Source of the DNA: Gammaproteobacteria bacterium
GTDB taxonomy: Bacteria > Pseudomonadota > Gammaproteobacteria > DSM-16500
Assembly (NCBI GenBank): GCA_013288125.1
Contig: JABDCN010000015.1
Span: 1 to 42,005, forward strand
DNA length: 42,005 nucleotides
Reading direction: 5' to 3'
In this document: in pieces, positions 16,745 through 32,640 of the stretch
How the letters are laid out: the number at the start of each line of letters is the position of its first letter
How positions within the stretch are numbered: position 1 is the first letter of the stretch
The notes under the pieces: generated by a model
Told to the model about the DNA's origin: nothing
Database searches by the model: none
Seen by the model: only the letters and a program-made list of their open reading frames with translations
Made by a program: the position numbers and the translations under genes

Positions 16745-17122
16745 TTAAGCGACGCCAGTCGCAGAGAATGTTGCGGTTGTAGAGCTGGGTCCTGTCAGTG
16801 TACAGGTAACTGTTGCACCTGCGGTCACCGAGGCTGCTGTTATGGTATAACCCGATGGTAAGCCACCTTGTAAGGCACTGGCGACATCTGTGCAATTAGC
16901 AACAGCAACACCTAAGGTAGAGCTTAATTGACGGGCAGCATAATTACTGGCGTTGGCAGCGGATAAAGCACCAGCAATGGCAATCGTTGCATTGCTTTGC
17001 GCAGTTGATGAGATATTAATAAATTTCGGGATGGCAATTGCCGCTAAAATACCAATAATAGCAATGACAATAACCAATTCGATCAAAGTAAACCCTTTAC
17101 GAGAGCGTAGAAGACTGTTCAT
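16745..17122 (-). CDS. mshA: Type IV pilin, major MSHA pilin-like
   Basis: A 125-aa prepilin. The type III leader MNSLLRSRKG is cut by the prepilin peptidase before Phe; the mature N-terminus FTLIELVIVIAIIGILAAIA has Glu at +5. The globular part holds two cysteines (VANC and TVTC), placed to form the C-terminal D-region disulfide. It is short for a major pilin. AGGAAAT precedes the ATG, 27 bases after mshG. Its position behind mshG matches mshA/mshB of Vibrio. There is no separate promoter that I could see. Whether it is the major subunit or MshB-like is inferred from being the only pilin on this strand. Confidence 0.85.
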   Translation of the reverse strand: MNSLLRSRKGFTLIELVIVIAIIGILAAIAIPKFINISSTAQSNATIAIAGALSAANASNYAARQLSSTLGVAVANCTDVASALQGGLPSGYTITAASVTAGATVTCTLTGPSSTTATFSATGVA

Positions 17123-17149
17123 GCAATATTTCCTTATAAATAAAAAATC

Positions 17150-18373
17150 CTAGGCATGGTATAAATTTACCATATTCCATATAGGTAAATAAATCCCTAA
17201 TGCCATAATCAGTATAAGAATAGAAACAATTCCAATCAAGACAGGGCCAATTGTATCTTGCATTCTTTTTAAATCATATTCCATCTCATGAGCATGGAAA
17301 AAAGCGATATAACTTAAAGCGGGGCCTAATGCGCCATTTTGATCGCCAACGGATAATATTTGCATTTCTAAAGGCGTCAGAAAGGTCAATTGTTTAATGG
17401 ATTCAGTAAAAGTTTTTCCTCGTTCAATCGATTCTTTTACTTCAAGAATTTGTGCCTTAAGGTAGGCATTTTGTAATAAGTTGTTGATTAAATCTAAACT
17501 TTTTGTCACTGACAAACCTGCTTCTATGGTAATGGCGAATGTTTGTGAAAAGCGTATCAAGGCGAGTCGTTTTAAAATTTTTCCTATCATCGGGAGTTTA
17601 AATTTGAATGCGTCATACTGATATCTGCCTGTTGGTGTATGAACATATCGATACAACCAAATTATCAAAATTATTAGCCCGATTAATGCATATAAGCCAT
17701 CATGTATAAAAAAATTTGAACTTGAAATTAATAATCGAGTTTGCCAGGGTAGTGTAACTCCAGATTTCGAATAAAACCGTGCAAATGTCGGTATGACAAA
17801 TAAATTGAGTGATAAAATAGATAGGATGATGGTAAATAACACAAAACTCGGATAGCGAAAGGCAGCTTTTATTTGCTTGGTATTGGTTAATTCAAATTCG
17901 AGATAATCATGAATTTGTAAAAAAGCACTGCTTAAATTGCCTGTATTTTCTCCAATTTGAACTAAATGCACCATGAGTGGTGTGAAAACACCAGGACAAT
18001 TTTGAAAAGCGGTGGATAGGGTATTTCCTTTTTCAAGATCATCAATGACGCTTTTAATGGCTTTCGACAATCGCCGGCTGCGTGTGTATTCAGCAAGTTG
18101 TTTTAATGCCGTTATCATTGGTACATTAGCTTTACTTAATAATTGCATTTGACGAGAAAAGATGGAGAGTTCTTCCAGTTGTAAACTTTTATTTTGAAAC
18201 CAATCTTGAAATGCTTCAAAGTCGAAACGAGCAGCTTTTTGTAAAGAAATCTCGATAGGAAAAATACCTTCTTTAATTAAGGTATTATTCAGCATATCAG
18301 CCGATGCTGCATCACGCCGTCCTACACGAAGGTGCCCTTCTTTATTTCGTCCACGATAAATAAATTGAGGCAT
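17150..18373 (-). CDS. mshG: MSHA biogenesis inner-membrane platform protein MshG (GspF/PilC family)
   Basis: A 407-aa GspF-type protein, the inner-membrane platform of the type IV pilus motor. It has two T2SSF domains: about 65-190 (FSRQMQLLSKANVPMITALK, then FRYPSFVLF before the first TM) and about 270-395 (RFSQTFAITIEAGLSVTKSL). Membrane segments lie at about 170-195, 220-245 and 375-400. The N-terminal MPQFIYRGRNKEGHLRVG is the usual start of MshG/PilC. Its ATG overlaps the mshE stop by one base. Confidence 0.93.
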   Translation of the reverse strand: MPQFIYRGRNKEGHLRVGRRDAASADMLNNTLIKEGIFPIEISLQKAARFDFEAFQDWFQNKSLQLEELSIFSRQMQLLSKANVPMITALKQLAEYTRSRRLSKAIKSVIDDLEKGNTLSTAFQNCPGVFTPLMVHLVQIGENTGNLSSAFLQIHDYLEFELTNTKQIKAAFRYPSFVLFTIILSILSLNLFVIPTFARFYSKSGVTLPWQTRLLISSSNFFIHDGLYALIGLIILIIWLYRYVHTPTGRYQYDAFKFKLPMIGKILKRLALIRFSQTFAITIEAGLSVTKSLDLINNLLQNAYLKAQILEVKESIERGKTFTESIKQLTFLTPLEMQILSVGDQNGALGPALSYIAFFHAHEMEYDLKRMQDTIGPVLIGIVSILILIMALGIYLPIWNMVNLYHA

Positions 18374-20067
18374 TAGATTTCACCTGACATACGAATAATT
18401 TCTTGAATAGTTGTTTTTCCGTGAATAGCTAAATCTAATCCAGTTTGCATTAAGGAGCGATAGGTCGGCTGTTTAATAGCGACTTTATGAAAAAGACCGG
18501 CATCTTGATGTCGTAAAGCATCTGCTAATTCTTCAGACATTAACAGTAATTCATAAACACCAATTCGACCTAAATATCCCGTATGATGACAGTAGGTACA
18601 TCCTAAGCCTTTTTTAAATGAGATTTGTTCGGATAAATCTTTGCAAAATGTTTTTAACCAAATGCTTTCTTCCATTGAAAGTTTGTCATCAGTGATACAA
18701 TTTGCGCAAATGCGTCTTACTAATCGTTGTGCAATGATGGCACGTAATACACTGGCAACAAGATAACCTTCTACTCCCATATCAAGTAAACGTGTCGCAG
18801 TGCTTACGGTATCATTGGTGTGGAGTGTGGCTAAAACAAAATGTCCTGTCATTGCTGCACGTAATGCAATTTCAGTTGTTTCTTCATCACGTAATTCGCC
18901 TATCATAATAATGTCAGGATCTTGTCGTAGAATAGAACGCAGCACTGAGGCAAACGTTAAATCAATTTGTGGATTAACTTGCACTTGATTTACACGAGTT
19001 AAACGGTATTCAACGGGATCTTCTACTGTAATAATTTTATCTTCCGCTTTATTTAATTCATTGAGTGACGCGTATAAAGTCGTTGTTTTACCACTGCCTG
19101 TTGGGCCCACAATTAAAAGTAAACCATAAGAGGAGTGTAATAAGTGTAAATAAGGTTCATATACTTTTTGAGGCATTCCAATTTGAGCAAGATTGAGTAA
19201 ATCAGCAGATTGATTAAGTAAACGCATCACTAGTGATTCACCAAATTGCACAGGTAAGGTTGAAACACGAACATCAAAATTTTTATGCTTAATTGTGATT
19301 GAAAAACGTCCGTCTTGAGGAAGACGTTTTTCAGTAATATTTAATTTAGACATTAATTTAATGCGTTGAATCAAAGCTTGGCTAATTTCTTTTTCTTCAA
19401 TGATTTGTTCTTGCAGTACCCCATCAACGCGTAGACGAATTCGCAATACTTTTTCACCAGGTTCAATATGAATATCTGAAGCATTCACTTGAACTGCATC
19501 TTCAAAGATAGAACGTAATAAATTAACAACAGGGATGTCTTCTGAAGAGAAGGCTTGAATATCGGTGATTAAATCATCTGGTTGTTTTAATTCAGCAGAT
19601 AATGATTCAGCGAAATGAGAAATTTCTTCTGAGCGTCTGAAAATTGTATCTAAAATACTAAGTAAATCTTCTTCTCGAATCAGTGCAACTTCAATTTTTT
19701 TCTTTACTAATTTTTCAATTTCATCTTTAGCAAGAAAATCTTGTGGATCGACAAGGCCGACTAAATAAAAATCAATTTCATCTTTTAAGACTAATGCTCG
19801 AAAATGTCTGCAATAAAATTCCGGCAGTAATTTAACAATTTCTGGTTCAATAGGATAAAGTTTAAGATCTATATAAGGAACATGTAATTGAGTAGATAAT
19901 ACTTTTAATAAATTATCTTCATCGATAAATCCGAGATCAATTAAAATTTGCCCGATTTTTTTGTCTGATATTTTTTGTTCTGCTAATGCAACATCTAATT
20001 GTTCTTGTGTGATAAGCTGTTGATTGAGTAATGTCTCTGCAATATAACTTTTTTTACCCCACTTCAT
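18373..20067 (-). CDS. mshE: MSHA pilus extension ATPase MshE (GspE/PilB family)
   Basis: A 564-aa cytosolic ATPase. The start is the ATG at 20067 (MKWGKKSYIAETLL), which has AAAGGAG upstream; the longer frame to 20148 lies inside mshN and has no homology. The N-terminal MshEN domain (about 1-140) has LLNQQLITQEQLDVALAEQ and is the module that binds cyclic di-GMP in Vibrio MshE. The C-terminal motor has Walker A GPTGSGKTTT (about 320-329), the Asp and His boxes (EDPVEYRL, MTGHFVLATLHTND) and a tetracysteine zinc site (CANC and CTYC). Its start overlaps mshN by 14 bases. Control of pilus extension by c-di-GMP is likely but inferred. Confidence 0.95.
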   Translation of the reverse strand: MKWGKKSYIAETLLNQQLITQEQLDVALAEQKISDKKIGQILIDLGFIDEDNLLKVLSTQLHVPYIDLKLYPIEPEIVKLLPEFYCRHFRALVLKDEIDFYLVGLVDPQDFLAKDEIEKLVKKKIEVALIREEDLLSILDTIFRRSEEISHFAESLSAELKQPDDLITDIQAFSSEDIPVVNLLRSIFEDAVQVNASDIHIEPGEKVLRIRLRVDGVLQEQIIEEKEISQALIQRIKLMSKLNITEKRLPQDGRFSITIKHKNFDVRVSTLPVQFGESLVMRLLNQSADLLNLAQIGMPQKVYEPYLHLLHSSYGLLLIVGPTGSGKTTTLYASLNELNKAEDKIITVEDPVEYRLTRVNQVQVNPQIDLTFASVLRSILRQDPDIIMIGELRDEETTEIALRAAMTGHFVLATLHTNDTVSTATRLLDMGVEGYLVASVLRAIIAQRLVRRICANCITDDKLSMEESIWLKTFCKDLSEQISFKKGLGCTYCHHTGYLGRIGVYELLLMSEELADALRHQDAGLFHKVAIKQPTYRSLMQTGLDLAIHGKTTIQEIIRMSGEI

Positions 20068-21319
20068 GTAAACTCCTTTGTAGGGCTTGTAAATGTGTTT
20101 GTAAATATTGATTGGAATCAGGATTGAGCTGACCTTCAGCCATAGCACGTTTGTAAGCCGTCATTGCCGCTTTGTTTTGATTTGTTTTTTCATAAGATAC
20201 AGCTAATCCAAACCACCAATTACCATTGTGAGGATTAATATTGATTAATTGTTTATAAGTATCAATGGCAAGGGCATCATCATTATGTTGTTCATAGAGT
20301 GCAGCGATCAGAGCATGATAATCAGGGTTTTCGTTAATAGGAGGAGAAATGGTATGCAATAAATCTAATGCTTGTTGTGTTTTACCTTTCAAGTCTAAAA
20401 TACGCGCTTTTAATTCAATAAAGGGTGCATAATTAGAAGATAATTGCATCCCTTCATTAATCATTTTTTCTGCTTCACGTTGTTCTCCATTATTTAAATA
20501 AAGTGCTACTAAGGAAGTGCGGGCATCTTTATAGCTTGGATCAGTTTTTAATAAGGCATTTAATCGTAAAATAGCTGCTTCATAATTATTTTTTTCGATA
20601 TCATTAAGTGCTAATTGGTATTGTTCTGATAATACGGTTTGAATAGCAGGTGTTTTTATTATGTTAGCGGGAGTGGTATGTGGTGATACCGCAGGATTGA
20701 CTAGAGGATTCATTAATGGAGAAGCAATGGCTAACACTAATTCTGGATCATGGTCTTCATTACTTAAATTAATATATTGAATCGTGGCACCAGGGCTTAA
20801 ACGTAAATGAAAAATGGTTTCATGCTTGTCTTGTTCTGCACGTAAATATTGAATCGCAGTGACAAATTGATTAAGAGAAGGAATGGCTGCTTGTAATTCA
20901 GTATTATCAAAAATAATTTCAATTTCATTATTCATTTCATTGGTAACAAGTCGATAAAGTATAGGATGATCGAGTGAAAATGTCATTTCAGTGATATTAT
21001 CTTTTAATTGCGTTGTGATCCCTGTAATAGAGCCATGTTTAATCCATGTGTTTTCATCAGACATGTTGAGGATGGGCGTATGCTGAAAAGAATCAGTTGG
21101 TAATGATTTGATATGCTGCAATGGCACCACAGGTTTGACGATGCAATAGACTAATAAAAATAAAAAACAGGCAAGCAATATAATACAGGGAATAATATAA
21201 TAAGATGATAAATTAATTTTCCTTTTTTGTTTTCTGGAATAGATCGCACTAAGATAAGGCTTTTCAAGCTGGATCTGTCTTTTCTCTAAATCTTTTAACA
21301 TATTGTTGATTAAGCTCAT
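20054..21319 (-). CDS. mshN: MSHA biogenesis TPR protein MshN
   Basis: A 421-aa bitopic inner-membrane protein. The N-terminus MSLINNMLKDLEKRQ is the standard MshN/GspB-like opening. One TM lies at about 40-62. The periplasmic part includes a domain at about 105-205 and at least four TPR-like repeats (about 235-405: YQLALNDIEKNNYEAAILRL, LVALYLNNGEQREAEKMINE, LIAALYEQHNDDALAIDTYK, LAVSYEKTNQNKAAMTAYKR). Its start codon overlaps the mshM stop (TAATG), so the genes are coupled. In MSHA systems MshN works with MshM and the secretin. Confidence 0.9.
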   Translation of the reverse strand: MSLINNMLKDLEKRQIQLEKPYLSAIYSRKQKRKINLSSYYIIPCIILLACFLFLLVYCIVKPVVPLQHIKSLPTDSFQHTPILNMSDENTWIKHGSITGITTQLKDNITEMTFSLDHPILYRLVTNEMNNEIEIIFDNTELQAAIPSLNQFVTAIQYLRAEQDKHETIFHLRLSPGATIQYINLSNEDHDPELVLAIASPLMNPLVNPAVSPHTTPANIIKTPAIQTVLSEQYQLALNDIEKNNYEAAILRLNALLKTDPSYKDARTSLVALYLNNGEQREAEKMINEGMQLSSNYAPFIELKARILDLKGKTQQALDLLHTISPPINENPDYHALIAALYEQHNDDALAIDTYKQLININPHNGNWWFGLAVSYEKTNQNKAAMTAYKRAMAEGQLNPDSNQYLQTHLQALQRSLHEVG

Positions 21320-22221
21320 TAAACAATCCTTATGATGAAACTGATAACCAAAGTAAAAATAAATAAACCAGTTATGACAGTAACGACATGTTTTAATTGA
21401 AATCGAAATTTTTTTGTGGCTTCTGTATCATGAATGGCGATCTTCATGCTTTTGTGATCAATTTGTTTATCACCCACACCATAAGCAACTAATAATGCTT
21501 TGTGAGAAAGTACATTGACTAAACGAGGAACACCTTGGCTTGCTTGATATAAAAGATTTTTTGCTCGTTTAGTAAATAAATTACCATGCGTGTGTCCTGC
21601 CACAGCTAATCGATGATTAAGATAAACATCTAATTCTTCACGATTAAGAAGAGGTAAGTGATGTGAAAAAGTAATGCGTTGCTTCAGTTGACGCAAATGT
21701 GGTTTGCGTAAACGGTCATCCAATTCGGGCTGGCCAAATAAAACAACTTGCAAAAGTTTGGCGCTTTCTGTTTCTAAATTGGTGAGCAAGCGTAAAGTTT
21801 CAAGACTATCATCTGTCAATGCTTGTGCTTCATCGATGATTAACACAACTTTTTTATTGTTTTGATGTAATTTAATGAGTTGATGATAGATTAAAGTTAA
21901 TATTTCATGTTGATCTGAAGAGGAAGAAGGATCTAAACCTAATTCGCGTGCAAACGCTTTGCGTAATTCAATGGGCGTTAAATCTGGATTGGGAATATAA
22001 GCCGTGACGTAATTATCATTTAAATTTTCTAATAATTTTCTGCAAAGTAATGTTTTGCCAGAACCAACCTCACCAATAATTTTAATGAATCCTTCGCCAC
22101 TTTGTATGCAAAATTGCAAGGTGTTTAATGCATCGTTATGTCCTTTTAGTTGACAAAAGAAATGAGGATTAGGTGTAAGGCCAAAAGGTAGAACTTGTAA
22201 TTGAAAATATTCCTGATACAT
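21319..22221 (-). CDS. mshM: MSHA biogenesis AAA ATPase MshM (ExeA/GspA family)
   Basis: A 300-aa protein with the ExeA-type opening MYQEYFQLQVLPFGLTPNPH. Walker A is GEVGSGKT (50-57), Walker B VVLIIDEAQAL (about 123-133), sensor LVVLFGQPELD-like (here LQVVLFGQPELDDRL). A single C-terminal TM lies at about 279-299. ExeA/GspA proteins help insert the secretin into the cell wall. The gene is separated from mshL by 207 bases that contain a long palindromic repeat, the only large gap in the operon. Confidence 0.93.
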   Translation of the reverse strand: MYQEYFQLQVLPFGLTPNPHFFCQLKGHNDALNTLQFCIQSGEGFIKIIGEVGSGKTLLCRKLLENLNDNYVTAYIPNPDLTPIELRKAFARELGLDPSSSSDQHEILTLIYHQLIKLHQNNKKVVLIIDEAQALTDDSLETLRLLTNLETESAKLLQVVLFGQPELDDRLRKPHLRQLKQRITFSHHLPLLNREELDVYLNHRLAVAGHTHGNLFTKRAKNLLYQASQGVPRLVNVLSHKALLVAYGVGDKQIDHKSMKIAIHDTEATKKFRFQLKHVVTVITGLFIFTLVISFIIRIV

Positions 22222-22299
22222 ATGGGTTATCCTTTTTTACCTCAAGTCCAGAATTTAAATTACATTAAATCAGTTAACTTGACGCTAAACTCGGTGTTT

Positions 22300-22398
22300 C
22301 GTCGTTGCGAGGAGTACGCGAAGCGTACGACGAAGCAATCCATACAGGGGTTGCCTGGATTGCTTCGTCGTACGCTTCGCGTACTCCTCGCAACGACG
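22300..22398. repeat. Long inverted repeat, family A copy 2, inside the msh operon
   Basis: Perfect 43-base arms at 22300-22342 and 22356-22398, starting CGTCGTTGCGAGGAGTACGC, with a 13-base loop. The arm is identical over 40 bases to copy 1 at 16218-16341, and the loop looks like a shortened form of that loop. It lies between mshL and mshM and would form a very stable hairpin in the mshI-mshA transcript, perhaps lowering expression of distal genes. Confidence 0.93.
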
Positions 22399-22428
22399 GC
22401 CTCTTTGCAACGACGAGGCTGAGCATAA

Positions 22429-24213
22429 CTACCGATTTATCCGTTCTCCCTCATTACCAAATATTTTAGGTAAGCCACCCGCTTGGAATGGGCGTTTCAA
22501 TACAACAAATGATCTTCTTGATTCACGTAACTTATTAATTTCAGCTTGATTCGTTACAACAATGGGTCGTAACAAAATCACTAATTCAGATTTAGTGGAT
22601 ATTTGTTCTGTACGACGAAACAGTGAACCGATGAAGGGTATTTTGCTCACCCATGGCGTACCTACAATGGTTTCATTCATGACATTTTGCATTAAACCGC
22701 CAATCACAACCACTTGACCGTTTTTTGCTCGTACAATATTGTCAGATTCGCGAATGGTACTAAAAGCAAGTGGTAGAATAAGCGTATTATTCGAACCCGT
22801 TGAACTTGCACCTAACACAATGGTTTTGGTTTGTTGCGTCACCGTACTGATGCTCGGATGAATATGTAATATTACATTTTCTGCGCTGCTAATTTCTGGT
22901 GTGACATCAAGTGTAATACCTGAAAAGAATGGTGTTAGTGAAACATCTTGCGAGGGAATTGTATTCGTTCCAATAATCGTATTTGAAGTAGAAACACCTG
23001 TCACGAAGAATTCATCTGAGCCGACTTTAATGACGGCTTTTTGATTATTGACGGTAGAAATATGCGGGCTTGATAAGATTTGAACGTTACCTTGTGTTTG
23101 CAATAAGTTAATCAGCAATTTAAAATTACCATTCATTTTAATCGCGAAAATACCATTTAAATTCGTTAAATCGGTTCCATTGAAGGTACTATTTGCTGCT
23201 TGTCCAAACCCACCATTATTATTTCCTGTTTGATTCAGTTGATTAGCAGCGACATTTGCTAATACGGCCCAATCAATGCCAGCTTGGAAACTATCATTCA
23301 ATTGTACTTCTAAAATTTTTGCTTCTAAGATAACTTGACGATTTAAACTAGATTGTAAGTTATTCAGATAGCTTGCAACGCGATGTAATTCATTTGGATA
23401 AGCTCGCACAATGATCACACCCGCTTGTGCATTCATCGTGACACTTCGACCTGGTTCTTTTCCTACAATATTGGTGACGGCTTTCTCTAAATCTTTAAAG
23501 AATTGCATTTCTGTTTTTGTTTCAATACTACTAATTGTTCCAACGCCTTCTGGTGTTGAAGAAGGCGTAACAGGTGTCGGTGCGGTACCTGAGGAACCAC
23601 TGCCGCCGGTAGAGATGGTACCAACTTTATTACTTACTTGTCCTGTCGTTAATTGTGTGTAAGATCGACCGGTACGTTGTATATCGAGATAATTGACATG
23701 AAATACTTGTGTTTCCAATTGTGGTGGTGAAATTTCGTAACCGTAAGAAGTGCGGTGATACTCATAACCATAAATATCACGGATAGCATCTAATGCTTCA
23801 TGTAAAGTGACATTTTTTAAGTTAAGTGAAATAGTCCCCGTAACGGCGGGCGACACAATAATATTAACAGGTGTTTCAGCAACGAGACCCATAAAAAATT
23901 CTCTGGCCGGTATATTGTTTGCGGCTACGTCAAACCGAGGTGTTTCTGTTTTAGCGGGTGAAACGTAATGTGATAATGGCGGTAATAAGGCCGTATTGAT
24001 TGATGATGATCGATGCGTATGTCGCTGGCGACGAGGATATCGCCCTTCATCTGTTTTAATGTCGTGGTTGAGGGTACTCATGATTTGTTGTTCTGAAGTC
24101 TGCATTTTGGGATGGATCGTATGGCAGCTTGTTAGCAGAAAGAATACGACACAGACTGTCAGCCATTGATAAACTTTATGTTGCCGCATTGACATTAAAA
24201 ATATCCATTTCAT
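22429..24213 (-). CDS. mshL: MSHA outer-membrane secretin MshL
   Basis: A 594-aa secretin, the outer-membrane channel of the pilus. The lipoprotein signal ends in LLTSC with Cys30 if the ATG at 24213 is used; that ATG overlaps the mshK stop (ATGA), and the ATGs for residues 7 and 9 are alternatives. The N-terminal secretin_N/STN domain (about 95-170) has IIVSPAVTGTISLNLKNVTL. The GSTGGSGSSG-like Gly/Ser/Thr linker is at about 190-225. The N1 domain (about 240-290) precedes the secretin core (about 290-565: VILEAKILEVQL, LLQTQGNVQILSSPHISTVN, VRAKNGQVVVIGGLMQN, PWVSKIPFIGSLFR, ELVILLRPIVV). Confidence 0.95.
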   Translation of the reverse strand: MKWIFLMSMRQHKVYQWLTVCVVFFLLTSCHTIHPKMQTSEQQIMSTLNHDIKTDEGRYPRRQRHTHRSSSINTALLPPLSHYVSPAKTETPRFDVAANNIPAREFFMGLVAETPVNIIVSPAVTGTISLNLKNVTLHEALDAIRDIYGYEYHRTSYGYEISPPQLETQVFHVNYLDIQRTGRSYTQLTTGQVSNKVGTISTGGSGSSGTAPTPVTPSSTPEGVGTISSIETKTEMQFFKDLEKAVTNIVGKEPGRSVTMNAQAGVIIVRAYPNELHRVASYLNNLQSSLNRQVILEAKILEVQLNDSFQAGIDWAVLANVAANQLNQTGNNNGGFGQAANSTFNGTDLTNLNGIFAIKMNGNFKLLINLLQTQGNVQILSSPHISTVNNQKAVIKVGSDEFFVTGVSTSNTIIGTNTIPSQDVSLTPFFSGITLDVTPEISSAENVILHIHPSISTVTQQTKTIVLGASSTGSNNTLILPLAFSTIRESDNIVRAKNGQVVVIGGLMQNVMNETIVGTPWVSKIPFIGSLFRRTEQISTKSELVILLRPIVVTNQAEINKLRESRRSFVVLKRPFQAGGLPKIFGNEGERINR

Positions 24214-24542
24214 TTCAATAATTCCGATTTTACAGTAGGCGCAATCTTTAGCTGTTCAAAACGACCTTCGGATCCAGATAATTCTACCGTATCAGGGGTA
24301 ATATTGGTAATAGTAAAATTATCTAAATGATTACCTACCCTTGAGATGTTATTGTTGATAATGGCAAATCTGTCATTGGGATAAGTAAAAATGGCCGTTA
24401 AGAGGAAAGAACTACTCGATTGAGCAGCCGAAGCGGGAAGATTAGGTGGTAAGGTAGGATCACGTAATATTTCACCCCTTGCGATGAGTGGTATCAATAA
24501 CAAGAGAAATATCTTATTGAGAAAAAGTAATCGGTTCTTCAT
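24210..24542 (-). CDS. mshK: MSHA biogenesis protein MshK
   Basis: A 110-aa small protein between mshJ and mshL. The ATG at 24542 is preferred; a TTG at 24566 is the only longer start. A signal or membrane segment (LLFLNKIFLLLLIPLIARG) is followed by RDPTLPPNLP, the conserved start of MshK, and a small beta domain with AIINNNISRVGNHLDNFTIT that resembles the GspC/PilP homology region. The gene overlaps mshJ by 29 bases and mshL by 4. It probably links the inner-membrane complex to the secretin. The call rests mainly on synteny plus the DPTLPP motif. Confidence 0.8.
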   Translation of the reverse strand: MKNRLLFLNKIFLLLLIPLIARGEILRDPTLPPNLPASAAQSSSSFLLTAIFTYPNDRFAIINNNISRVGNHLDNFTITNITPDTVELSGSEGRFEQLKIAPTVKSELLK

Positions 24543-25146
24543 AAAGAATAGAAAACTCCAATTCAATTTCAGCTAAAGGATAATGAGTCACATGGTAGTT
24601 AATATGTTTCCATTGCACATTAGGCAATGTTTTTTCGAGATATTGAAGGTATTCAATCGTATTAAAATAATTACCAGTCATTGTGACGACAAAAGGTTGT
24701 TCATAAATTTGGGATGTGATGCGAGGATCCCCTGTCTGAAAGGCGGTTTTAGGAAAATTTTTAATGTTTTCAATTTTGATAGTATTAGTCGTTTGTAGAA
24801 CGGCTTGAACAACTTCTTCCCATTGTGCTGAAGAAGAGGTTTGTAAAAATTTTTTATATTTATTTTCGATTTGATTGATAGATTGATGTTGTTTGATCCA
24901 TTCTTTATAAAGCGCAGTTTGACTAATTTTTTGCAGTGCATTGATTTGTAATTGCCAATTATTGATGGAATGATTTAATTGCGTAATTTCATTATTTAAT
25001 TGCATTGTTTTTTCATCAATCGATTTAAAAAATATGAAATAAAATATAAAATATATCAACGCCCATCCTAAAATAAGGACAAAGCATCGCTCTCGGGTGG
25101 AGCGATTTAAAAACCATGTTTTAAATTGTAATATATATTTTTCCAT
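24514..25146 (-). CDS. mshJ: MSHA biogenesis protein MshJ (PilO-like)
   Basis: A 210-aa bitopic inner-membrane protein. The N-terminus has the MshJ-like pattern TWFLNRSTRERCFVLILGWA leading into the TM (about 20-41). A coiled coil follows (about 45-100) and then a periplasmic ferredoxin-like domain (about 130-208: FVVTMTGNYFNTIEYLQYLE, a PilO/GspM-type signature). It forms the alignment subcomplex with MshI and the PilN-like protein. It starts three bases after the preceding gene. Confidence 0.88.
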   Translation of the reverse strand: MEKYILQFKTWFLNRSTRERCFVLILGWALIYFIFYFIFFKSIDEKTMQLNNEITQLNHSINNWQLQINALQKISQTALYKEWIKQHQSINQIENKYKKFLQTSSSAQWEEVVQAVLQTTNTIKIENIKNFPKTAFQTGDPRITSQIYEQPFVVTMTGNYFNTIEYLQYLEKTLPNVQWKHINYHVTHYPLAEIELEFSILYEEPITFSQ

Positions 25147-25149
25147 ATA

Positions 25150-25740
25150 TTATTTCTTGATCATAATTTCAAAATTTAAACCAGTTGGCGTTTGCTCTAT
25201 TTTATTGATGTGTAAAGTATATGCGGCATAGCGTTTGTTATTTAATATATTATCTAAAAATAAACGGAGTGCTGGCATACTCAAACTATTTCCTTTAAAA
25301 GTAAATTCAAGCCCATCGTTAATCATAATATCTGTTAACCATACATCGGGTGTAATTAATTGTCCAATGAGTGTCAGATCAGATGAAAAAGGTTTTTTTT
25401 GAGTAATGGTACGTAATATTTTTTGTTGTGATTCTATGTGCTCTTGAATATTTTTCATTAAACCGCCAACATCGTGAGCGAAAAATATGGCTGGGTATTT
25501 ACTTTTAATTGCATAAAATTGACTTTCTGATGTATGCAATGTTTTAGTTAACACATTTTTTTTATGTTTAAGATAAATAATATTGCCCCAAGAAATGAAG
25601 GTCATTAAAATAAAAATGAGAACAAGCAAAATACAAGCGAGACAACATATTCTCCATGTTAATAGGGAGGTTACCGGTGGCGGCGCCTTAAAAATCTGAT
25701 AAAGATTAACTTCCTGATTTAACGTATTTTCCATTGTCAT
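25150..25740 (-). CDS. PilN-like alignment protein (MshI2)
   Basis: A 196-aa bitopic protein. The N-terminal NQEVNLYQIFK is the conserved cytoplasmic motif by which PilN-type proteins bind the PilM-like partner. One TM is at about 27-52, then a coiled coil and a periplasmic PilN domain (about 120-195: LIGQLITPDVWLTDIMINDG). The gene overlaps the 3' end of mshI by 35 bases. Its place between mshI and mshJ matches the gene called mshI2 or msh PilN in other genomes. Confidence 0.85.
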   Translation of the reverse strand: MTMENTLNQEVNLYQIFKAPPPVTSLLTWRICCLACILLVLIFILMTFISWGNIIYLKHKKNVLTKTLHTSESQFYAIKSKYPAIFFAHDVGGLMKNIQEHIESQQKILRTITQKKPFSSDLTLIGQLITPDVWLTDIMINDGLEFTFKGNSLSMPALRLFLDNILNNKRYAAYTLHINKIEQTPTGLNFEIMIKK

Positions 25741-26695
25741 AAAGAGCGCATCCTAATGCTAATAGACATTTATTATTTATTTTTTTTAACTGTTGTTGAT
25801 CGATTAAATTAAATTTGGGTTGATAAACACTCACTGTTAAAAGTAAATGTTCAGATAGTGATTTAGCGATTTCTTCATGATGATCATGTGAAATAACAAA
25901 CACACGATTAGGGCTTGGATATCGCCATTGTGCTTGGAAATAATCAAAATAACGCATGATATTGAGACAAATTTCTTCGTATTTAAGATTGTTTGTTTCT
26001 TCTATGACTGGTTTATTAAGACGATAAGTAAAATAAATGCTTTTATTTCGAGTGATATTTAAGATAATACCTTTGTCATAGAAATACAGTATACAAGTGC
26101 TTTTATCGTCATCTTCATACAATGAGCTCAAATTTCGCATGGCAAGTTCAGGAATATAAATCATTTGTAAGGGCATATTTATTTTATCAAACCAATCAGA
26201 AATTTCTAATAATCGACTTTTTTTTGCAACAATTCCAACGACCATGGGTGATGTCGCATTTTTTTTTGGTGGTAACATAAAATAATCGATGACAGCATCT
26301 TCTAAGGGATAAGAAAGTAGTGTGCGTAAGCGCCATCCTAAAGCATCATAAATTTCATCTTGGGCAACAGGGAGTGATTCAATTAAAAATATTTGGTAAT
26401 CATCAGGTTCTAATAGATAATAAGCTGGCATGTCCTCCAAATGATGTTTATTGATGATGCCTGGCATGATTAAAGATAAATTATTGACAGTATCGAATTG
26501 TAATGAAGTTGCGTCGAGTATTTCAGTGGATTCGTGAGTATGATTCATGGCAACTAGGGATAATTCATTTGATATGTTACTGATGGCGACTCGTTCTTTT
26601 GTGCTGATTGTTTGTTTCTCAGCAAGTAATGGATCCAACCATTGGAGTATTTTTTTTAACGGATGCTGTAGGCGGTTATCATCCTTGACATACAT
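25706..26695 (-). CDS. mshI: MSHA biogenesis protein MshI (PilM-like)
   Basis: A 329-aa cytosolic, actin-like PilM-type protein. Features that fit are LEDMPAYYLLEPDDYQIFLI and LPVAQDEIYDALGWRLRTLL (the family's alpha/beta core), VVGIVAKKSRLLEISDWF and the late LLALGCALYD, which corresponds to the ALGLAL element of MshI. The ATP-binding residues are weakly conserved. It is the first gene of the minus-strand msh operon; its promoter must be in the 86-base region shared with the divergent minor-pilin operon. Confidence 0.85.
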   Translation of the reverse strand: MYVKDDNRLQHPLKKILQWLDPLLAEKQTISTKERVAISNISNELSLVAMNHTHESTEILDATSLQFDTVNNLSLIMPGIINKHHLEDMPAYYLLEPDDYQIFLIESLPVAQDEIYDALGWRLRTLLSYPLEDAVIDYFMLPPKKNATSPMVVGIVAKKSRLLEISDWFDKINMPLQMIYIPELAMRNLSSLYEDDDKSTCILYFYDKGIILNITRNKSIYFTYRLNKPVIEETNNLKYEEICLNIMRYFDYFQAQWRYPSPNRVFVISHDHHEEIAKSLSEHLLLTVSVYQPKFNLIDQQQLKKINNKCLLALGCALYDNGKYVKSGS

Positions 26696-26781: not shown

Positions 26782-27267
26782 ATGAACGTGAAAACCGCTG
26801 CCGGTTTTACCATCATAGAATTAGTCCTGGTTATTGCCATCATCGGCATACTTGCTGTTACTGTCGTGCCTCAATGGGATACGACGACTGGACTTAACGT
26901 TAATTTTACGGCACGACAGATGGCTAACGATTTTCGTTATGCACAAGCCCTTAGTATGTCTACTGGGCTGCGTTATCGTTTTGTTGTGCTATCTTCTTCT
27001 AGTTATGAAATTACAAATAATGCAGGGTCTGCGATTATTTTACCTTCAGGAGGGACACAAATGACGTTAACACAAGGCGTCACCATAGGAACATTGACTA
27101 ATATGCCTAATAATCTCATTGCATTTGATTCGCGTGGTATTCCATATACTGATACCGGTTCGCCAGGGACCGCGCTTGCTTCTACAGCCGCAGTGCCTGT
27201 GACAGCAAGTGGTATGACACGCTCTGTCCAAGTTACACCTCAAACAGGTTATGTGACACTACAATGA
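26782..27267 (+). CDS. mshC: Minor pilin, MshC-like (GspH/FimT type)
   Basis: A 161-aa prepilin with a short leader (MNVKTAAG) and mature FTIIELVLVIAIIGILAVTV with Glu at +5. The region after it (FTARQMANDFRYAQALSMST, then a GSAIILPSGG-like beta part and VTPQTGYV near the end) is the GspH/FimT pseudopilin layout typical of MshC. It starts the plus-strand minor-pilin operon and overlaps the next gene by four bases (ATGA). Minor pilins prime assembly and sit at the pilus tip. Confidence 0.83.
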   Translation: MNVKTAAGFTIIELVLVIAIIGILAVTVVPQWDTTTGLNVNFTARQMANDFRYAQALSMSTGLRYRFVVLSSSSYEITNNAGSAIILPSGGTQMTLTQGVTIGTLTNMPNNLIAFDSRGIPYTDTGSPGTALASTAAVPVTASGMTRSVQVTPQTGYVTLQ

Positions 27268-27641
27268 ATAAGCAGTCAGGGTTTACTTTAATTGAATTAG
27301 TTGTTTTTATTGTCGTGAGTGGGTTGTTGATGGGAACTATCTTGCTTGGTGTTAATGCAGCACTAAACAAAACGCCTCAAGTACATGAACAATGGGTCGC
27401 AATAAACACAGCAAGCGGTTGTATGGAAACCTTACTCGAACAGCGTCGATTATCAGGCTATTCCGTTTTTTCTTGTCCGAGCACACCTTCAACCAGTGCT
27501 TGTGTTTTACCATCTGGTTATACTTTGTCGGCTTCAGTTAGTTGTACCACTTGGGATAGTGATACGAATTACAAAACAATGACTGTTTCGGTGGGGGGAT
27601 TAGCTGATGCATCGCTTTCTACACAGATAGGAAATTTTTAA
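27264..27641 (+). CDS. mshD: Minor pilin, MshD-like
   Basis: A 125-aa prepilin with leader MNKQSG and mature FTLIELVVFIVVSGLLMGTI. The central part (TASGCMETLLEQRRLSGYSV) resembles MshD, and three further cysteines (CPSTPSTSAC, SCTTW) suggest a disulfide-stabilised loop. It is short for MshD (usually near 180-200 aa). Assignment to MshD is from gene order and the METLLEQ segment. Confidence 0.78.
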   Translation: MNKQSGFTLIELVVFIVVSGLLMGTILLGVNAALNKTPQVHEQWVAINTASGCMETLLEQRRLSGYSVFSCPSTPSTSACVLPSGYTLSASVSCTTWDSDTNYKTMTVSVGGLADASLSTQIGNF

Positions 27642-27642
27642 G

Positions 27643-28122
27643 ATGAAACAATCATCACAATTTGGTTTTACTTTAATTGAACTGGTGTTTGTGATGGTGC
27701 TCATGGCTATCATTAGTGTGATAATAGGAAAATTTTTATTTCAATCCTATAACACTTTTCAGACTGCTAATAATATTAATGAAGTTGAATGGCAAGGATT
27801 TCTTGGATTAAATCGCATGGTGAGTGATATTCACACGATTCGTTCGTCAGGTGATATTTCTACTATATCATCAAATAATTTTGTCTTTACGGATATCAAT
27901 GGCAATGCTGTGCAGTATCAATTAAGTGGTACATCACTAACGCGTAATGGCCAAGTGTTAGCTAGTGGTATACAAACATTAAGTTTGAGTTATTTTGATG
28001 AAAATAATGCAGTGACATCAACGCCATCATTGACACGTTTTATTAAGATGAGTTTGTCGGTTGCGCAAGGGACGATATCAACGTCTTATTCAACGATTGC
28101 GGCAGTGAGAGTAACGTCATGA
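27643..28122 (+). CDS. mshO: Minor pilin, MshO-like
   Basis: A 159-aa prepilin with leader MKQSSQFG and mature FTLIELVFVMVLMAIISVII with Glu at +5. The body fits MshO/PilW-like minor pilins: EVEWQGFLGLNRMVSDIHTI, FVFTDINGNAVQYQLSGTSL, TLSLSYFDENNAVTS. Its start lies one base after the previous stop and its end overlaps the next gene by four bases, so all four genes are coupled. Confidence 0.8.
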   Translation: MKQSSQFGFTLIELVFVMVLMAIISVIIGKFLFQSYNTFQTANNINEVEWQGFLGLNRMVSDIHTIRSSGDISTISSNNFVFTDINGNAVQYQLSGTSLTRNGQVLASGIQTLSLSYFDENNAVTSTPSLTRFIKMSLSVAQGTISTSYSTIAAVRVTS

Positions 28123-29780
28123 AAAAAAAATTAGGCCCCATTAAAAAAATTGAGAATCTTCCGAATCGCAATCAAGAAGGATATTTTCTTGTTATCGCCG
28201 TCGTTTTGATTATGGTGATCGGATTGATGGCATCAGTGATTAGTTATATGTTTTCAAATCGTGCCATGATCAGTGGAAAGGAATTCATGGGGTTAAAAAC
28301 ATTTTATAATGCTGAATCGGGACTTGAAATCGGTGCGCGTTTATTGTCAATGGCGCCCATCACAGGCACACCAACACGTCTGACTTGTGCAGCATTAACG
28401 GGTACAGCAGCTGTGACTAATGCCTCTTTTGGCGGTGGTCAATTGACAGTGTCAGCGGCTAATAGTGCACCAACATTTGCGACCTCAACTTTGTCTGCTG
28501 CAGTGACATCGGCAGCATTAACTATTCCTGTAAGTAGTGCTTCTGGTTTTGCTTCTCATGGAAGAATCATGATAGACAGAGAATTAATTGATTATGCTGA
28601 CATCTCAGGCAATTCTTTTATTGGCGTGACGCGTGGTGCTGGTGACAGCATCGCAACCAACCATACAAGCGGAACAAGTGTAGGTCAATATGAATGTTCT
28701 TTGACGTCGCAGGCTGCTATTTCAACGATAGCATCACCCTCTTATCAACGTGAATTGCAATGGGGTGTGCAATTACAAAATGGATGGGTGGCAGCAAATG
28801 TCTCTAGTAAAAATTTTGAATTAGAACAATGGAACCATTCAACAGAAATGGCTTGGAATGCATTTGCATTGAATAGCTCGACTTTCGCGGTGAATTTAAA
28901 TGGGATTAGTATGTTATCTCAAGCAGATGGATGGGCTGTGGGACGAGGTGTGACAACTAATCTTGTTTTTTTGCATTGGACAGGATCAACGTGGGGGGTT
29001 GTGACAGTAACAGCTCCTTGCGCTAGTTTAAATTTAAATGGTGTTTCTATGGTTTCCTCACAAGAAGGGTGGGCAGTGGGCACGACTTATCATGTGGCTT
29101 GCGCCGGTTCGCTGTTTCGCTATTTGATCGCAAAATGGAATGGTAGTAGTTGGACTGTTTTGACGCCATCAACTTCGCCAAGTCTACCAGCAGATAATGC
29201 GACCAATCAAACTTTAAATGATGTTAATGTGATTAATACCGATAGCGATGGATTAGGTAATATTGGTTTTGCTGTTGGAAATAACGGTGTGATTCTTGAA
29301 TATAATGGTACAAATTGGGTGAGCATGGCGAGTCCTACCACTAAAGTCTTAAACAGTGTATCTGTTGTTTCCGCAAATGAAGCGTGGGCTGTTGGTGCAA
29401 ATGGTACGATATTGAAATTTAATGGAACAAGTTGGAGTACGGTTACTTCACCTTCGACAAATACGTTAAATGAGATAACTATGTTGAGTACTAATGGAAG
29501 CACGGCTAGTAACGGATGGATTGTGGGAAATAATGGCACTATTCTTACTTATAATGGATCGACTTGGTCTTCGACAACGGTTGGATCGAATACGCTTCTC
29601 AGCGTGTCATATTTTAATGCAAATGATGTTTGGGCAGTGGGGGCGAATGGAACAGGTATACATTGGGACGGTAGTTCATGGTCTACTTTGAGTACAGGAA
29701 CAAGTTTACAATTAAATGCCATTAGCCTTGTTTCATCGGGAAGCACACCGGTTTCTGCCTGGAATCAGGTGTTTCAGTGA
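28119..29780 (+). CDS. MshP-like minor pilin fused to a repeat domain resembling a beta-propeller
   Basis: A 553-aa protein, against about 150 for ordinary MshP. The N-terminus (about 1-80) is MshP/PilX-like: basic leader, QEGYFLVIAVVLIMVIGLMA, SGKEFMGLKTFYNAESGLEI. A small beta module follows (about 128-186: RIMIDRELIDYADISGNSF, GVTRGAGDS). From about 211 to the end there are six repeats of 40-55 residues with the pattern LNxVSxVSxxxxWAVGxxGxILxxNGxxW, plus a partial seventh at the C-terminus (LNAISLVSSG). A matching second half (WVAANVSSKNFELEQWN) at about 222-240 would complete a seventh blade. It is the last gene of the operon and occupies the place of mshP/mshQ. A pilus-tip adhesin role is inferred. 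Confidence 0.85.
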   Translation: MKKKLGPIKKIENLPNRNQEGYFLVIAVVLIMVIGLMASVISYMFSNRAMISGKEFMGLKTFYNAESGLEIGARLLSMAPITGTPTRLTCAALTGTAAVTNASFGGGQLTVSAANSAPTFATSTLSAAVTSAALTIPVSSASGFASHGRIMIDRELIDYADISGNSFIGVTRGAGDSIATNHTSGTSVGQYECSLTSQAAISTIASPSYQRELQWGVQLQNGWVAANVSSKNFELEQWNHSTEMAWNAFALNSSTFAVNLNGISMLSQADGWAVGRGVTTNLVFLHWTGSTWGVVTVTAPCASLNLNGVSMVSSQEGWAVGTTYHVACAGSLFRYLIAKWNGSSWTVLTPSTSPSLPADNATNQTLNDVNVINTDSDGLGNIGFAVGNNGVILEYNGTNWVSMASPTTKVLNSVSVVSANEAWAVGANGTILKFNGTSWSTVTSPSTNTLNEITMLSTNGSTASNGWIVGNNGTILTYNGSTWSSTTVGSNTLLSVSYFNANDVWAVGANGTGIHWDGSSWSTLSTGTSLQLNAISLVSSGSTPVSAWNQVFQ

Positions 29781-29789
29781 TAGCTCAGT

Positions 29790-29860
29790 TTAAAACTATT
29801 TCCCTCCCCTCCAGCGAACGCTGGAGGGGAGGGTTAGGGAGGGGAGGGAAATAGTTTTAA
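29790..29860. repeat. CT/AG-rich palindrome with two alternative stems, family E
   Basis: The segment TCCCTCCCCTCC at 29801-29812 can pair either with the adjacent GGAGGGGAGGG at 29823-29833 (hairpin CCAGCG-AA-CGCTGG core) or with 29838-29849; the outer arms TTAAAACTATT/AATAGTTTTAA (29790-29800, 29850-29860) support the second pairing. It starts ten bases after the stop of the pilin-propeller gene and could act as its terminator. Confidence 0.85.
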
Positions 29861-29977: not shown

Positions 29978-30883
29978 ATGACATCATCACACAAATGCAT
30001 TATATTTTTTATTCTTTCCATTATTTTTTTATCCAGCTGCACAACGATTCCTCCCATTCAAATCCCCGACAAAGAACCTGTTTCTCAACGTCTTAAACAT
30101 TTACATCCCAACGTTGTATTAGTATTAGGCAGTGGCAGTGCTCGCGGATTTGCTCATGCAGGTGTCCTAAAAGTATTAGAAGAAAATCATATTCCTATTG
30201 ATTTGATTGTTGGAACCAGTGCCGGTGCAATTGTGGGTTCGCTTTATGCAGATCATCCTTCAGCTGATTGGTTAATTCGATTATTATTAACAACGCATCG
30301 CAATGAAGTGATCGAATATTCTTTATTGAATATCAGACAAGGCATCATCAGTGGGACAAAAGTACAAAGTTTTTTAATTAATCATATGCGTGCAAAAACA
30401 TTTGATGAATTACCTATTCCTTTTGTTGCTGTTGCAACGAATTTATTAACGGGCCGCATACATGTATTTGGTAGTGGTCCGATTGCGCCCGTTGTTAATG
30501 CATCGAGCGCTATTCCACCTTTCTTTTCACCTGTAAAATTATATGGAAATAATTATATTGACGGTGGTATTGTTGATCCCGTCGCGGTGGATGTGGCAAA
30601 ACGATTTCATCCTAAAATTATTATTGCAGTTAGTCTTGATTTTCCTTTGTCGCGTGATATTCCAACGAATAGCCTGAGTGTATTTTTAAAAGGAGTAAAC
30701 ATGATGCTGCTACGATTAAATGATTATAGCGCAGAGGGTGCTCAAGTGATTATTACACCGCAGATTGGTGAAACAGGTATGTTCGATGGAGACAAACGTT
30801 TAAATACAATTCACGCAGGGGAGGTGGCAGCAAGAAAAGCATTACCAACAATTAAAAAATTACTACTTAGAGATCGTCTTTAA
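29978..30883 (+). CDS. Patatin-like phospholipase lipoprotein
   Basis: A 301-aa patatin-family serine hydrolase, RssA/YchK-like, expected to hydrolyse phospholipids or other acyl esters. A lipoprotein signal ends in LSSC (Cys21), so the enzyme is tethered to a membrane. The oxyanion loop is GSGSARGF (51-58), the nucleophile motif GTSAG (79-83, Ser81) and the catalytic Asp is in IDGGIVDP near residue 195. The usual NASSAIPPFFSPV segment is present. No Shine-Dalgarno sequence is evident before the ATG, so initiation may be weak or leaderless. Patatin lipases are frequent in Legionellales, mostly as effectors or envelope enzymes; the lipobox favours an envelope enzyme. Confidence 0.92.
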   Translation: MTSSHKCIIFFILSIIFLSSCTTIPPIQIPDKEPVSQRLKHLHPNVVLVLGSGSARGFAHAGVLKVLEENHIPIDLIVGTSAGAIVGSLYADHPSADWLIRLLLTTHRNEVIEYSLLNIRQGIISGTKVQSFLINHMRAKTFDELPIPFVAVATNLLTGRIHVFGSGPIAPVVNASSAIPPFFSPVKLYGNNYIDGGIVDPVAVDVAKRFHPKIIIAVSLDFPLSRDIPTNSLSVFLKGVNMMLLRLNDYSAEGAQVIITPQIGETGMFDGDKRLNTIHAGEVAARKALPTIKKLLLRDRL

Positions 30884-30919
30884 ACTTAGACTTGCCATCT
30901 GCGGCTTGAGGAAGCTGAA

Positions 30920-30970
30920 ATTTCGTCGTTGCGAGGAGCATGCGTAGCATGCTCCTCGCAACGACGAAAT
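30920..30970. repeat. Inverted repeat, family A short variant
   Basis: Perfect 24-base arms at 30920-30943 and 30947-30970 around GTA; the outer part reads ATTTCGTCGTTGCGAGGAGC, matching the outer half of the family A arms, while the inner part is GCATGC. A further partial arm (TTGCAACGACGAAA) follows at 30974-30987. It lies about 60 bases upstream of the M4 protease start codon, between two plus-strand genes. Confidence 0.9.
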
Positions 30971-31029
30971 CTCTTGCAACGACGAAACGCGGAATGACGA
31001 ATTGAATAAACTTGAAAGGAACATATGTT

Positions 31030-32640
31030 ATGAATTTTAAAAAAAAATCGGCTCTATTATTTTCTATTCCATTTTCATTATTTGTTTCTCACTCAGTAGA
31101 AGCAGCAAGATTAATTGATTTGCGTCATCAATCTCCCTCTATCTTACTTACAATAAATGCGACACAATCAATACAATTCAAAACAGTCAATACTCATATT
31201 GATTTTAATCAGGTCAAACACACGCGTTATCAAGAATATTATGATAGCTATCCTGTTTGGCATGCGACATTTATCAAACATGAACCACAAAATTCATTTA
31301 AATCAGTTGTTACGATGAATGGTATTATTTATGAATCATTGGCTTCTGATCTTCCTCGTGTACTGCCATTTAATCCCGCACAACAACAAAAAGTTTTACA
31401 AAAAGCAACTTCAACTTACGCAAGTTTAACTCAAACACAAGCCGCAAAAGATCAACAAGTATCAGCGAAAGAAATCATTTATATCGATGAAAAAAATATT
31501 GCGCATTATGCTTATTTAACCAGTTTTTTTGCTGAAGCAGATCAAGCAGGTATGCATCAACCCACCATGATTATCGATGCAAATACATTATATATTTATC
31601 AACAATGGGACCAAGTAATGACATTAGATAATGTCATTGCTGGCGGCGTAGGCGGTAATGCGAAAACAGGACGATTAATTTATGACGGAGGGAGAGGACA
31701 TTTACCCGGAATAAAAATGAAAGGAACTTTAGCACCAAAAAATCAATTTTCTGTTTGTTATTTTAAAAATGATGATGTTATTGTGAATGATACTTCATAC
31801 GGTGGTGTGAATGTGATTCAACAATGTCAGCAAGATAGTAATAAACACAATAATACAGAATGGTTAGATTGGGACAATAATGAAACCAGTTGGTTAAATG
31901 ATGAAGTAAATCAAGGATATTCACCTAGTATTGATTCATTTTATGCGGGTAATGTGATCACTTCTTTTTTTCATGATTGGTATGGTATTCCGGCATGGGT
32001 ACAAGAAGATGGTAAAACACCAATGCCAATTACCATTAATGCACATTATGGGAGAAATTTTGAGAACGCCATGTTTATTATTAATAAAGTGTATGTTGGA
32101 GATGGCGGTGAAAGATTTTATCCTTTAACATCGATTGATGTCATTGCACATGAAGTCGGTCATGGATTTACTTGGCAGCATTCATTCATTGGTTATCCCG
32201 AAAAACAAATGTCAGCATTGAATGAATCATTTTCTGATATGACATCAGCTGCAGTGAAGTTTTATGTGAATGGAAAAAATGATTGGAACATGGGCGATAC
32301 GATTACAAAACATGAAGAAGCGTTGCGTTACATGGATGATCCTAAAAAAGACGGCGTTTCTATTGATAACATGAAAGATTACAATCCAAATTTAGATGCG
32401 CATTTTATTACGGGTATTCCAAATAAAGCATTTTATCTCCTTGCAACAACACCAGGTTGGGATACGCATAAAGCTTATAATGTGATGATAAAAGCAAACA
32501 TGGATTACTGGACATCAAGTATGAAAACATTTTCAGATGCGGCTTGTGGCGTGATGGATGCTGCAAAAGATTATGCTTATTCTGTTGAAGATATCAAGAC
32601 AGCATTTGCAAACGTGGGAGTAGATACTTCGAATTGTTAG
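31030..32640 (+). CDS. Secreted M4 zinc metalloprotease (ProA/elastase-like)
   Basis: A 536-aa preproprotease. The start is the ATG at 31030 with AAGGAA upstream; a TTG at 31012 would add six residues in front of a normal signal peptide (MNFKKKSALLFSIPFSLFVS, cleavage near VEA). The propeptide (about 25-200) has FTP/PepSY-type folds. The catalytic domain carries HEVGH (374-378) with the third zinc ligand Glu399 in NESFSDM, WVQEDGKTPMPITINAHYGR, and ITGIPNKAFYLL with the transition-state region. This is the thermolysin/LasB/Legionella ProA family. It would be exported by Sec and a type II system; no T2SS genes are in the window. A two-codon ORF (ATGTTATGA) overlaps the start codon. Confidence 0.95.
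   Translation: MNFKKKSALLFSIPFSLFVSHSVEAARLIDLRHQSPSILLTINATQSIQFKTVNTHIDFNQVKHTRYQEYYDSYPVWHATFIKHEPQNSFKSVVTMNGIIYESLASDLPRVLPFNPAQQQKVLQKATSTYASLTQTQAAKDQQVSAKEIIYIDEKNIAHYAYLTSFFAEADQAGMHQPTMIIDANTLYIYQQWDQVMTLDNVIAGGVGGNAKTGRLIYDGGRGHLPGIKMKGTLAPKNQFSVCYFKNDDVIVNDTSYGGVNVIQQCQQDSNKHNNTEWLDWDNNETSWLNDEVNQGYSPSIDSFYAGNVITSFFHDWYGIPAWVQEDGKTPMPITINAHYGRNFENAMFIINKVYVGDGGERFYPLTSIDVIAHEVGHGFTWQHSFIGYPEKQMSALNESFSDMTSAAVKFYVNGKNDWNMGDTITKHEEALRYMDDPKKDGVSIDNMKDYNPNLDAHFITGIPNKAFYLLATTPGWDTHKAYNVMIKANMDYWTSSMKTFSDAACGVMDAAKDYAYSVEDIKTAFANVGVDTSNC

Follow-up and report, generated by a model that had tools for sequence, protein, structure and literature searches.

Introduction

What does a mannose-sensitive haemagglutinin (MSHA) pilus carry at its tip when no mshQ accompanies its genes? 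This question is raised by the stretch of DNA analyzed here (the window), that is, the 42,005 nucleotides of contig 15 (JABDCN010000015.1) of a gammaproteobacterial assembly (GCA_013288125.1), in which the last minor-pilin gene of an MSHA locus (28119..29780, + strand) encodes a protein of 553 residues. In the Vibrio MSHA pilus, which likewise has an mshL-type locus and a pilin operon, MshQ is the putative adhesin (PMC7096442); here, MshQ was not found and the MshP counterpart is large, so this gene departs from the arrangement by which MshP is recognized, a small pilin followed by mshQ. We think that the protein probably belongs to the PilX/GspK class ("MshP") and serves as minor pilin at the tip of an MSHA-type pilus, with a closed propeller and a phage-tail-like domain inside its globular head. 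One gene thus apparently merges a tip pilin and a tip adhesin, which are two proteins in other bacteria.

Results and discussion

An intact gene joins a pilin part and a propeller

The reading frame runs from ATG to stop without internal stops. The source genome (1.85 Mb) is 65% complete and lies in 75 contigs, and with such an assembly one could think of two genes joined by an assembly error, or of a pseudogene. This can be dismissed with near certainty because the same fusion occurs in open frames on separate contigs of other genomes, which also refutes the joined-gene artefact that the initial annotation had kept in mind.

Among relatives, 32 of 94 genomes gave some match, and 21 of them, own genome included, matched over both the pilin part and the propeller, the others showing one part or a weak match. 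Within the family of the source organism, the pilin part was found in 20 of 36 genomes (the start of the G008 copy is lost at a contig end) and was followed by the propeller in 19 of these 20, G025 having another domain. MshL (E <1e-70) was also present in 20 of the 36 genomes, 19 of which have the pilin part as well; the two exceptions to this pairing, G013 and G017, may reflect contig ends. FimU/GspH-, PilV-, and PilW-like (H-V-W) pilins stood directly upstream in 18 of the 22 loci L034–L055, plus L032. The next gene was mshI1 (L039, L041) or a PilT-like ATPase (L040, L044), and varied elsewhere.

Outside the family, the architecture was uncommon. In our reading, it was seen in G051, G072, G127, G170, and G344, on contig L032, and on the Nitrospirae contig L033 (1–2249), where a run of N flanked by duplicated sequence breaks the frame. 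On that same contig, pilM/N/O/P/Q-like open reading frames (ORFs) were recognized by eye downstream. The full pilin part (E <1e-30) occurred in 9 of 369 genomes of a class sample, own genome and one other family member included; by our reading, six of the nine have the propeller and three (G089, G130, G349) do not, G344 being an additional propeller case drawn from a weaker partial match. In a sample of 398 genomes of the phylum, no listed match to the full alignment spanned pilin and propeller except that of the own genome, a search that scored the three best first-look candidates per genome and may miss distant cases.

The repeats are predicted to close into seven blades

Six WAVG and six NGxxW repeats had been reported after the pilin part, and both counts held. 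The [WF][AIV][VA]G motif lies at residues 272, 318, 384, 423, 467, and 505, and [NDT]G[STN]xW at 288, 341, 396, 435, 479, and 517, while 10,000 shuffles of the protein gave at most 3 of either motif (means 0.15 and 0.13, respectively). An alignment of homologues reads as seven repeats, the first without its opening strand. The segments LNAISLVSSG and WVAANVSSKNFELEQWN had been proposed as the two halves of one further repeat, and, as a matter of fact, both predicted models have strands at these segments, in the register of one further blade. By this register, the C-terminal propeller strand (residues 531–538, LNAISLVS; 29709..29732) would complete blade 1. Profile search, Foldseek, and the predicted models all point to a propeller of seven four-stranded blades at residues 221–538 (28779..29732), and the number and register of the strands, together with the alignment to closed propellers, support the closure of the ring in the models, as first suggested.

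The closest propellers, by profile as well as by Foldseek, were those of Ycf48/Hcf136, photosystem II assembly factors which, unlike the window protein, are without a pilin part; PSII_BNR matched 2 of 20 homologous propellers. A DUF6087 match on the repeats was set aside as repeat noise (14 residues; score 24.0 for the whole protein and 28.3 for the propeller alone, cut-off 27.1), as were DUF2510, Rax2, and Toxin_2 matches in some homologues.

Propellers have many functions, and the head could be an enzyme or a DNA- or polysaccharide-binding module instead of a surface adhesin. The ComZ pilin of Thermus thermophilus, for one, binds DNA (PMC6561018). We regard such a function as rather unlikely: Pfam and NCBIfam searches at E 1 returned no enzyme family for the window protein, and its sole carbohydrate-binding match, CBM_5_12 (E 0.69), was far under cut-off.

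The pilin part is probably of the PilX/GspK class

The protein opens with a class III leader (residues 1–21; 28119..28181), with cleavage expected after G21 and a mature start YFLVI, followed by a hydrophobic stretch. Helices were predicted at residues 20–49 and 53–71, with low to middling confidence, the N-terminal pilin helix occupying residues 22–71 (28182..28331). Mature position 5 is isoleucine, whereas the remaining four pilins found at the locus have glutamate at this position (Glu5); Glu5 was absent from all 23 aligned sequences with a readable N-terminus. At E 0.1 or better, PilX_N (PF14341) recognized 12 of 22 homologous pilin parts, that of the window protein giving no match, and Pfam N_methyl, which we take to be the counterpart of the IPR012902 signature, gave none in the window protein at E 1.

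According to a review, a pilin without Glu5 is expected at the tip only (PMC6370729). Both GspK and PilX are without Glu5, and a model of the Myxococcus xanthus pilus puts PilX under PilY1 (PMC7541494). The propeller pilin is the last pilin of an H-V-W-X operon, V and W being named by order. MshL of the window exceeds the curated cut-off of TIGR02519, which places the propeller pilin in an MSHA locus. The "MshP-like" pilin of the initial annotation is better described as a PilX/GspK-class pilin within such a locus.

Two further segments of the pilin part deserve mention. Residues 115–194 (MIDRELIDY...GVTRG; 28461..28700) form a small inserted domain that resembles phage tail and baseplate modules: in PHROGs, they matched families of tail, baseplate wedge, and virion structural proteins (E from 3e-7 to 8e-5 for the top five), and similar stretches occur in 16 viral contigs. 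Judging from its sequence, the propeller pilin seems to carry here a second, phage-tail-like insert. Residues 208–219 (YQRELQWGVQLQ; 28740..28775) probably form a pilin strand placed just before the propeller, and short PilX-type pilins stop at what looks like the equivalent place. A PDB search with the pilin part found six matches, all of them weak (no E better than 0.05), which mainly concern the N-terminal helices of pilins.

A conserved tail follows the closing strand

Beyond the closing strand of the propeller, homologues share a conserved stretch that ends W-x-(E/Q)-x-(F/Y)-x; in the window protein, it covers residues 540–553 (29736..29777), with W548 and the end AWNQVFQ. It falls outside the propeller strands in both models, with low confidence in both. 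Because this tail follows the closing strand, the propeller was probably set between pilin strands and not appended to them. The fusion described at first thus stands, with the amendment that the pilin part would not simply continue into the propeller but resume after it. In the arrangement that we propose, the N-terminal helix would cap the H-V-W minor-pilin stack, the propeller would project outward as a binding head, and the short W-x-E/Q strand would return as the last strand of the pilin sheet, closing it in cis.

Many PilX-type pilins that carry unlike modules also have the tail. The pattern W-x-[EDQ], no more than six residues from the end, was present in 18 of 21 propeller pilins. It was found in 20 of 27 long PilX-type pilins (mature length at least 290), whatever their module (16 of 22 when propeller-free), as against none of 13 short ones (Fisher test, 1e-5). 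The loci of the long pilins were taken as best matches, so that the sample is not random, and some are from one genus; four of these pilins (L080, L092, L093, L094) also figure in the homologue set (as L054, L052, L055, and L046, respectively), and two short ones (L112, L155) were dropped, their frames running off the contig. None of eight further short pilins and 3 of 214 other ORFs had the pattern, the trailing residues allowed being at most five for this background and at most six for the group counts. A looser pattern was met in 23 of the 27 long and none of the 13 short pilins, and in 18 of the 214 background ORFs. In two homologues where the propeller is replaced, L054 keeps the tail and L055 a relic of it minus the tryptophan.

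These counts bear on the possibility that the propeller was grafted through a linker after a complete pilin head, as in Streptococcus sanguinis PilB, with the tail as a loose end of the propeller. The PilB and PilC architectures (PMC8179133, PMC9934059) offer precedents, and the low confidence of the tail in both models would fit. The end of a propeller would however not account for a tail that is shared across unrelated modules and that the short pilins read do not have; this tail also matches the end of PilY1 (see below). We therefore find an end-to-end graft improbable and favor an insertion into the pilin head.

Related pilins carry different heads

In G116, G240, and G344, all of one family (the first and last with the same genus label), the pilin parts are 40–60% identical; G344 has a propeller, and G116 and G240 have another domain, which aligned with that propeller no better than shuffled sequence. 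Since related pilin parts carry unrelated domains, the propeller looks like one of several heads for apparently the same slot. Ten PilX-type pilins of more than 300 residues (L117, L116, L085, L152, L161, L148, L163, L171, L158, L160) had differing modules, followed by a W-x-E/D or F-x-E tail. From sequence, we read the non-propeller modules as solenoid-like or jelly-roll-like. A Pfam scan of 10 long PilX-type pilins, five of them from this list, named a module only in L055 and, as the one case among the five, in L161 (DUF7305, under cut-off in L055), and a PDB search with the non-propeller homologue L054 gave no match at E 1.

The tail recalls the end of PilY1

Among PilY1 proteins of the class, 19 could be read, and 16 of these end in W-x-[EDQ] as well; the tryptophan was invariant in all 18 that were aligned (SWREL-type ends). 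They came from the leading 20 of 65 listed places, L172 being dropped for a stop in frame and L180 counted for its tail but excluded from the alignment (A6). Six MshQ proteins showed a looser resemblance, an aromatic-x-R-E-like sequence near the end, and at the very end in five (IYxREx-aromatic). In published models of two M. xanthus PilY1, the last eight residues form a strand added to PilX (PMC11046646), and such strand complementation was reported in four modelled complexes (PMC13190605). Most simply, the tail can be read as the strand by which the tip pilin is completed, coming in trans from PilY1 and, in the window protein, in cis from the pilin's own chain. The same job would then be done in PilY1-type systems by two proteins, the C-terminal strand of PilY1 joining PilX in trans.

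The initial annotation had compared the propeller with that of PilY1. The comparison turns out closer than stated as to the tail, which is common to both and is a feature found here, not a published criterion, and it finds no support in the propellers themselves, with an hhalign probability of 0.1 and no match to PF05567. Because the propellers are not detectably related, the likeness to PilY1 lies in role and joint and not in propeller descent. The PilX–PilY1 couple of type IVa pili likewise sets a Glu5-less PilX-class pilin beside a tip propeller (PMC7541494, PMC11046646, PMC13190605), in two proteins versus one chain here. On the whole, what had been observed on this gene is confirmed, and what had been made of it is partly supported.

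A shared motif could also be a common docking signal, and the tail might then dock in trans on the PilV- or PilW-like pilin, or be recognized by the assembly machinery; published models do have the C-terminus of PilY1 acting on PilX in trans (PMC11046646). Yet in these models the PilY1 tail pairs with a PilX-class pilin (PMC11046646), which here belongs to the same chain, and ComZ places its own last pilin strand after the module (PMC6561018). We consider trans docking or signaling unlikely, and closure in cis the better account of the tail.

A wider rule can be proposed tentatively, and it may hold or fail about equally, with the balance slightly toward failure. A terminal aromatic-x-(E/Q) strand would act as a general C-terminal clasp for heads at the pilus tip, completing the sheet of a tip pilin that has no Glu5. 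A short pilin would receive this strand in trans from PilY1, and possibly from MshQ, and large PilX-type pilins would supply it in cis, after an exchangeable slot for propellers, solenoid-like repeats, or other β domains. The window protein would be of the cis kind, its propeller having been gained independently of that of PilY1.

PilY1 and MshQ were not detected in the family

As initially stated, no mshQ follows the operon: the first + strand ORF after it that reaches 100 residues begins at 29978 and is unrelated. DUF6701 (PF20419), which we take as the mark of MshQ, matched none of the 36 family genomes, own included, and neither did the PilY1 model PF05567. Where MshQ is encoded within 4 kb downstream on the same strand, the upstream PilX-type pilin was short and tail-less in all 13 genomes read, with 131–143 residues in G049, G061, G069, G159, and G167, and 127–143 residues counted from the match start in G042, G070, G075, G083, G096, G117, G126, and G162. 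Left out of this count were G099, G121, and G122, with the genes close in another order or orientation, and G160, with 7 kb between them. The absence of PilY1 and MshQ matches supports a one-piece tip, without proving it.

Several points weigh against the reading of the window protein as a one-piece tip closed by its own tail. As to PilY1 and MshQ, the own genome is 65% complete, and both models were also absent from family members without a propeller pilin. They found no match in 14 named control genomes either, and class samples were for this reason run as positive controls, in which PF05567 matched 51 of 94 genomes (47 over cut-off) and PF20419 34 of 143 (33 over cut-off). Since G116 carries PilY1 alongside a modular PilX-type pilin, the two are not mutually exclusive. 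As to the tail, the pattern was fixed after tails had been inspected, its strict form is missing in 3 of 21 propeller pilins (one with a longer end beyond it), and the W-x-E form is not seen in the ends that PMC11046646 gives for M. xanthus PilY1. As to structure, the main gap is in the pilin part: residues 42–221 had a predicted local distance difference test score below 50 in the full-length model, because this was built from three sequences only, so that neither insertion nor docking of the tail can be seen in it. Within the propeller, confidence is lowest in blade 1 (block means 45–54, fragment residues 11–50), and closure was judged from strands and alignment. Finally, no ligand-binding site was identified in the propeller, whose invariant residues are mainly tryptophan and glycine.

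Place among modular pilins

Modular pilins are already known, and the window protein adds a propeller variant. More than 1,200 were listed from one signature, IPR012902 (PMC8179133); the window protein has the leader, the predicted helix, and a domain that is not pilus-specific, and gave no match to the N_methyl signature. PilB and PilC of S. sanguinis are minor pilins that also present a domain not specific to pili, with a proposed tip location, but their von Willebrand factor A or lectin modules are C-terminal to the pilin and Glu5 is present (PMC8179133, PMC9934059). ComZ, whose structure is solved, has a GspK-like pilin head that holds a large β domain between the penultimate and last pilin strands, and a proposed tip location; it differs in that the module is a β-solenoid and the pilus serves competence (PMC6561018). 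ComZ was absent among the PDB matches of the window protein and of its pilin part. We found no published description of a pilin–propeller fusion in a search that left aside preprints and most subscription papers.

If the proposed reading is true, a few C-terminal residues could suffice to recognize the tip adhesins of many pili, and large pilins missed by the usual pilin signature could be added to their number. It would also provide a simple rule for how one pilus scaffold mounts different heads, and would offer the PilX–PilY1 joint in a natural one-piece form, simpler to study than a two-protein complex.

Surroundings of the gene

The propeller pilin is the fourth gene of a tight + strand operon, after those of a FimU/GspH-like (26782..27267), a PilV-like (27264..27641), and a PilW-like (27643..28122) minor pilin, all three with Glu5 and the latter two named from gene order. 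Each start from the second gene on overlaps the previous stop or sits at most 4 bases from it, with a 4-base overlap between the first two genes and an ATGA overlap between the PilW-like stop and the propeller-pilin start. The MSHA machinery lies on the opposite strand (16745..26695) and comprises mshA (the major pilin), mshG, mshE, mshN, mshM, mshL, mshK, mshJ, mshI2, and mshI1, where mshL was assigned by TIGR02519 and the other names are presumed from gene order and background knowledge. Directly after the operon, a long and strong predicted hairpin (29790..29860, + strand; −46.9 kcal/mol, z −5.6) is a candidate terminator or repeat element; it contains a 14-base inverted element, of which no second copy was found in the window with up to two mismatches allowed.

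Beside the operon, at 29978–32640, one ORF has a patatin-like GxSxG and another an HExxH metallopeptidase motif, labels that we assign from the motifs, and both could be secreted enzymes. At the two contig ends (158–3121 and about 39800–42005), the left-end ORF and the right-end antisense ORFs resemble, by eye, repeat-rich surface adhesin genes.
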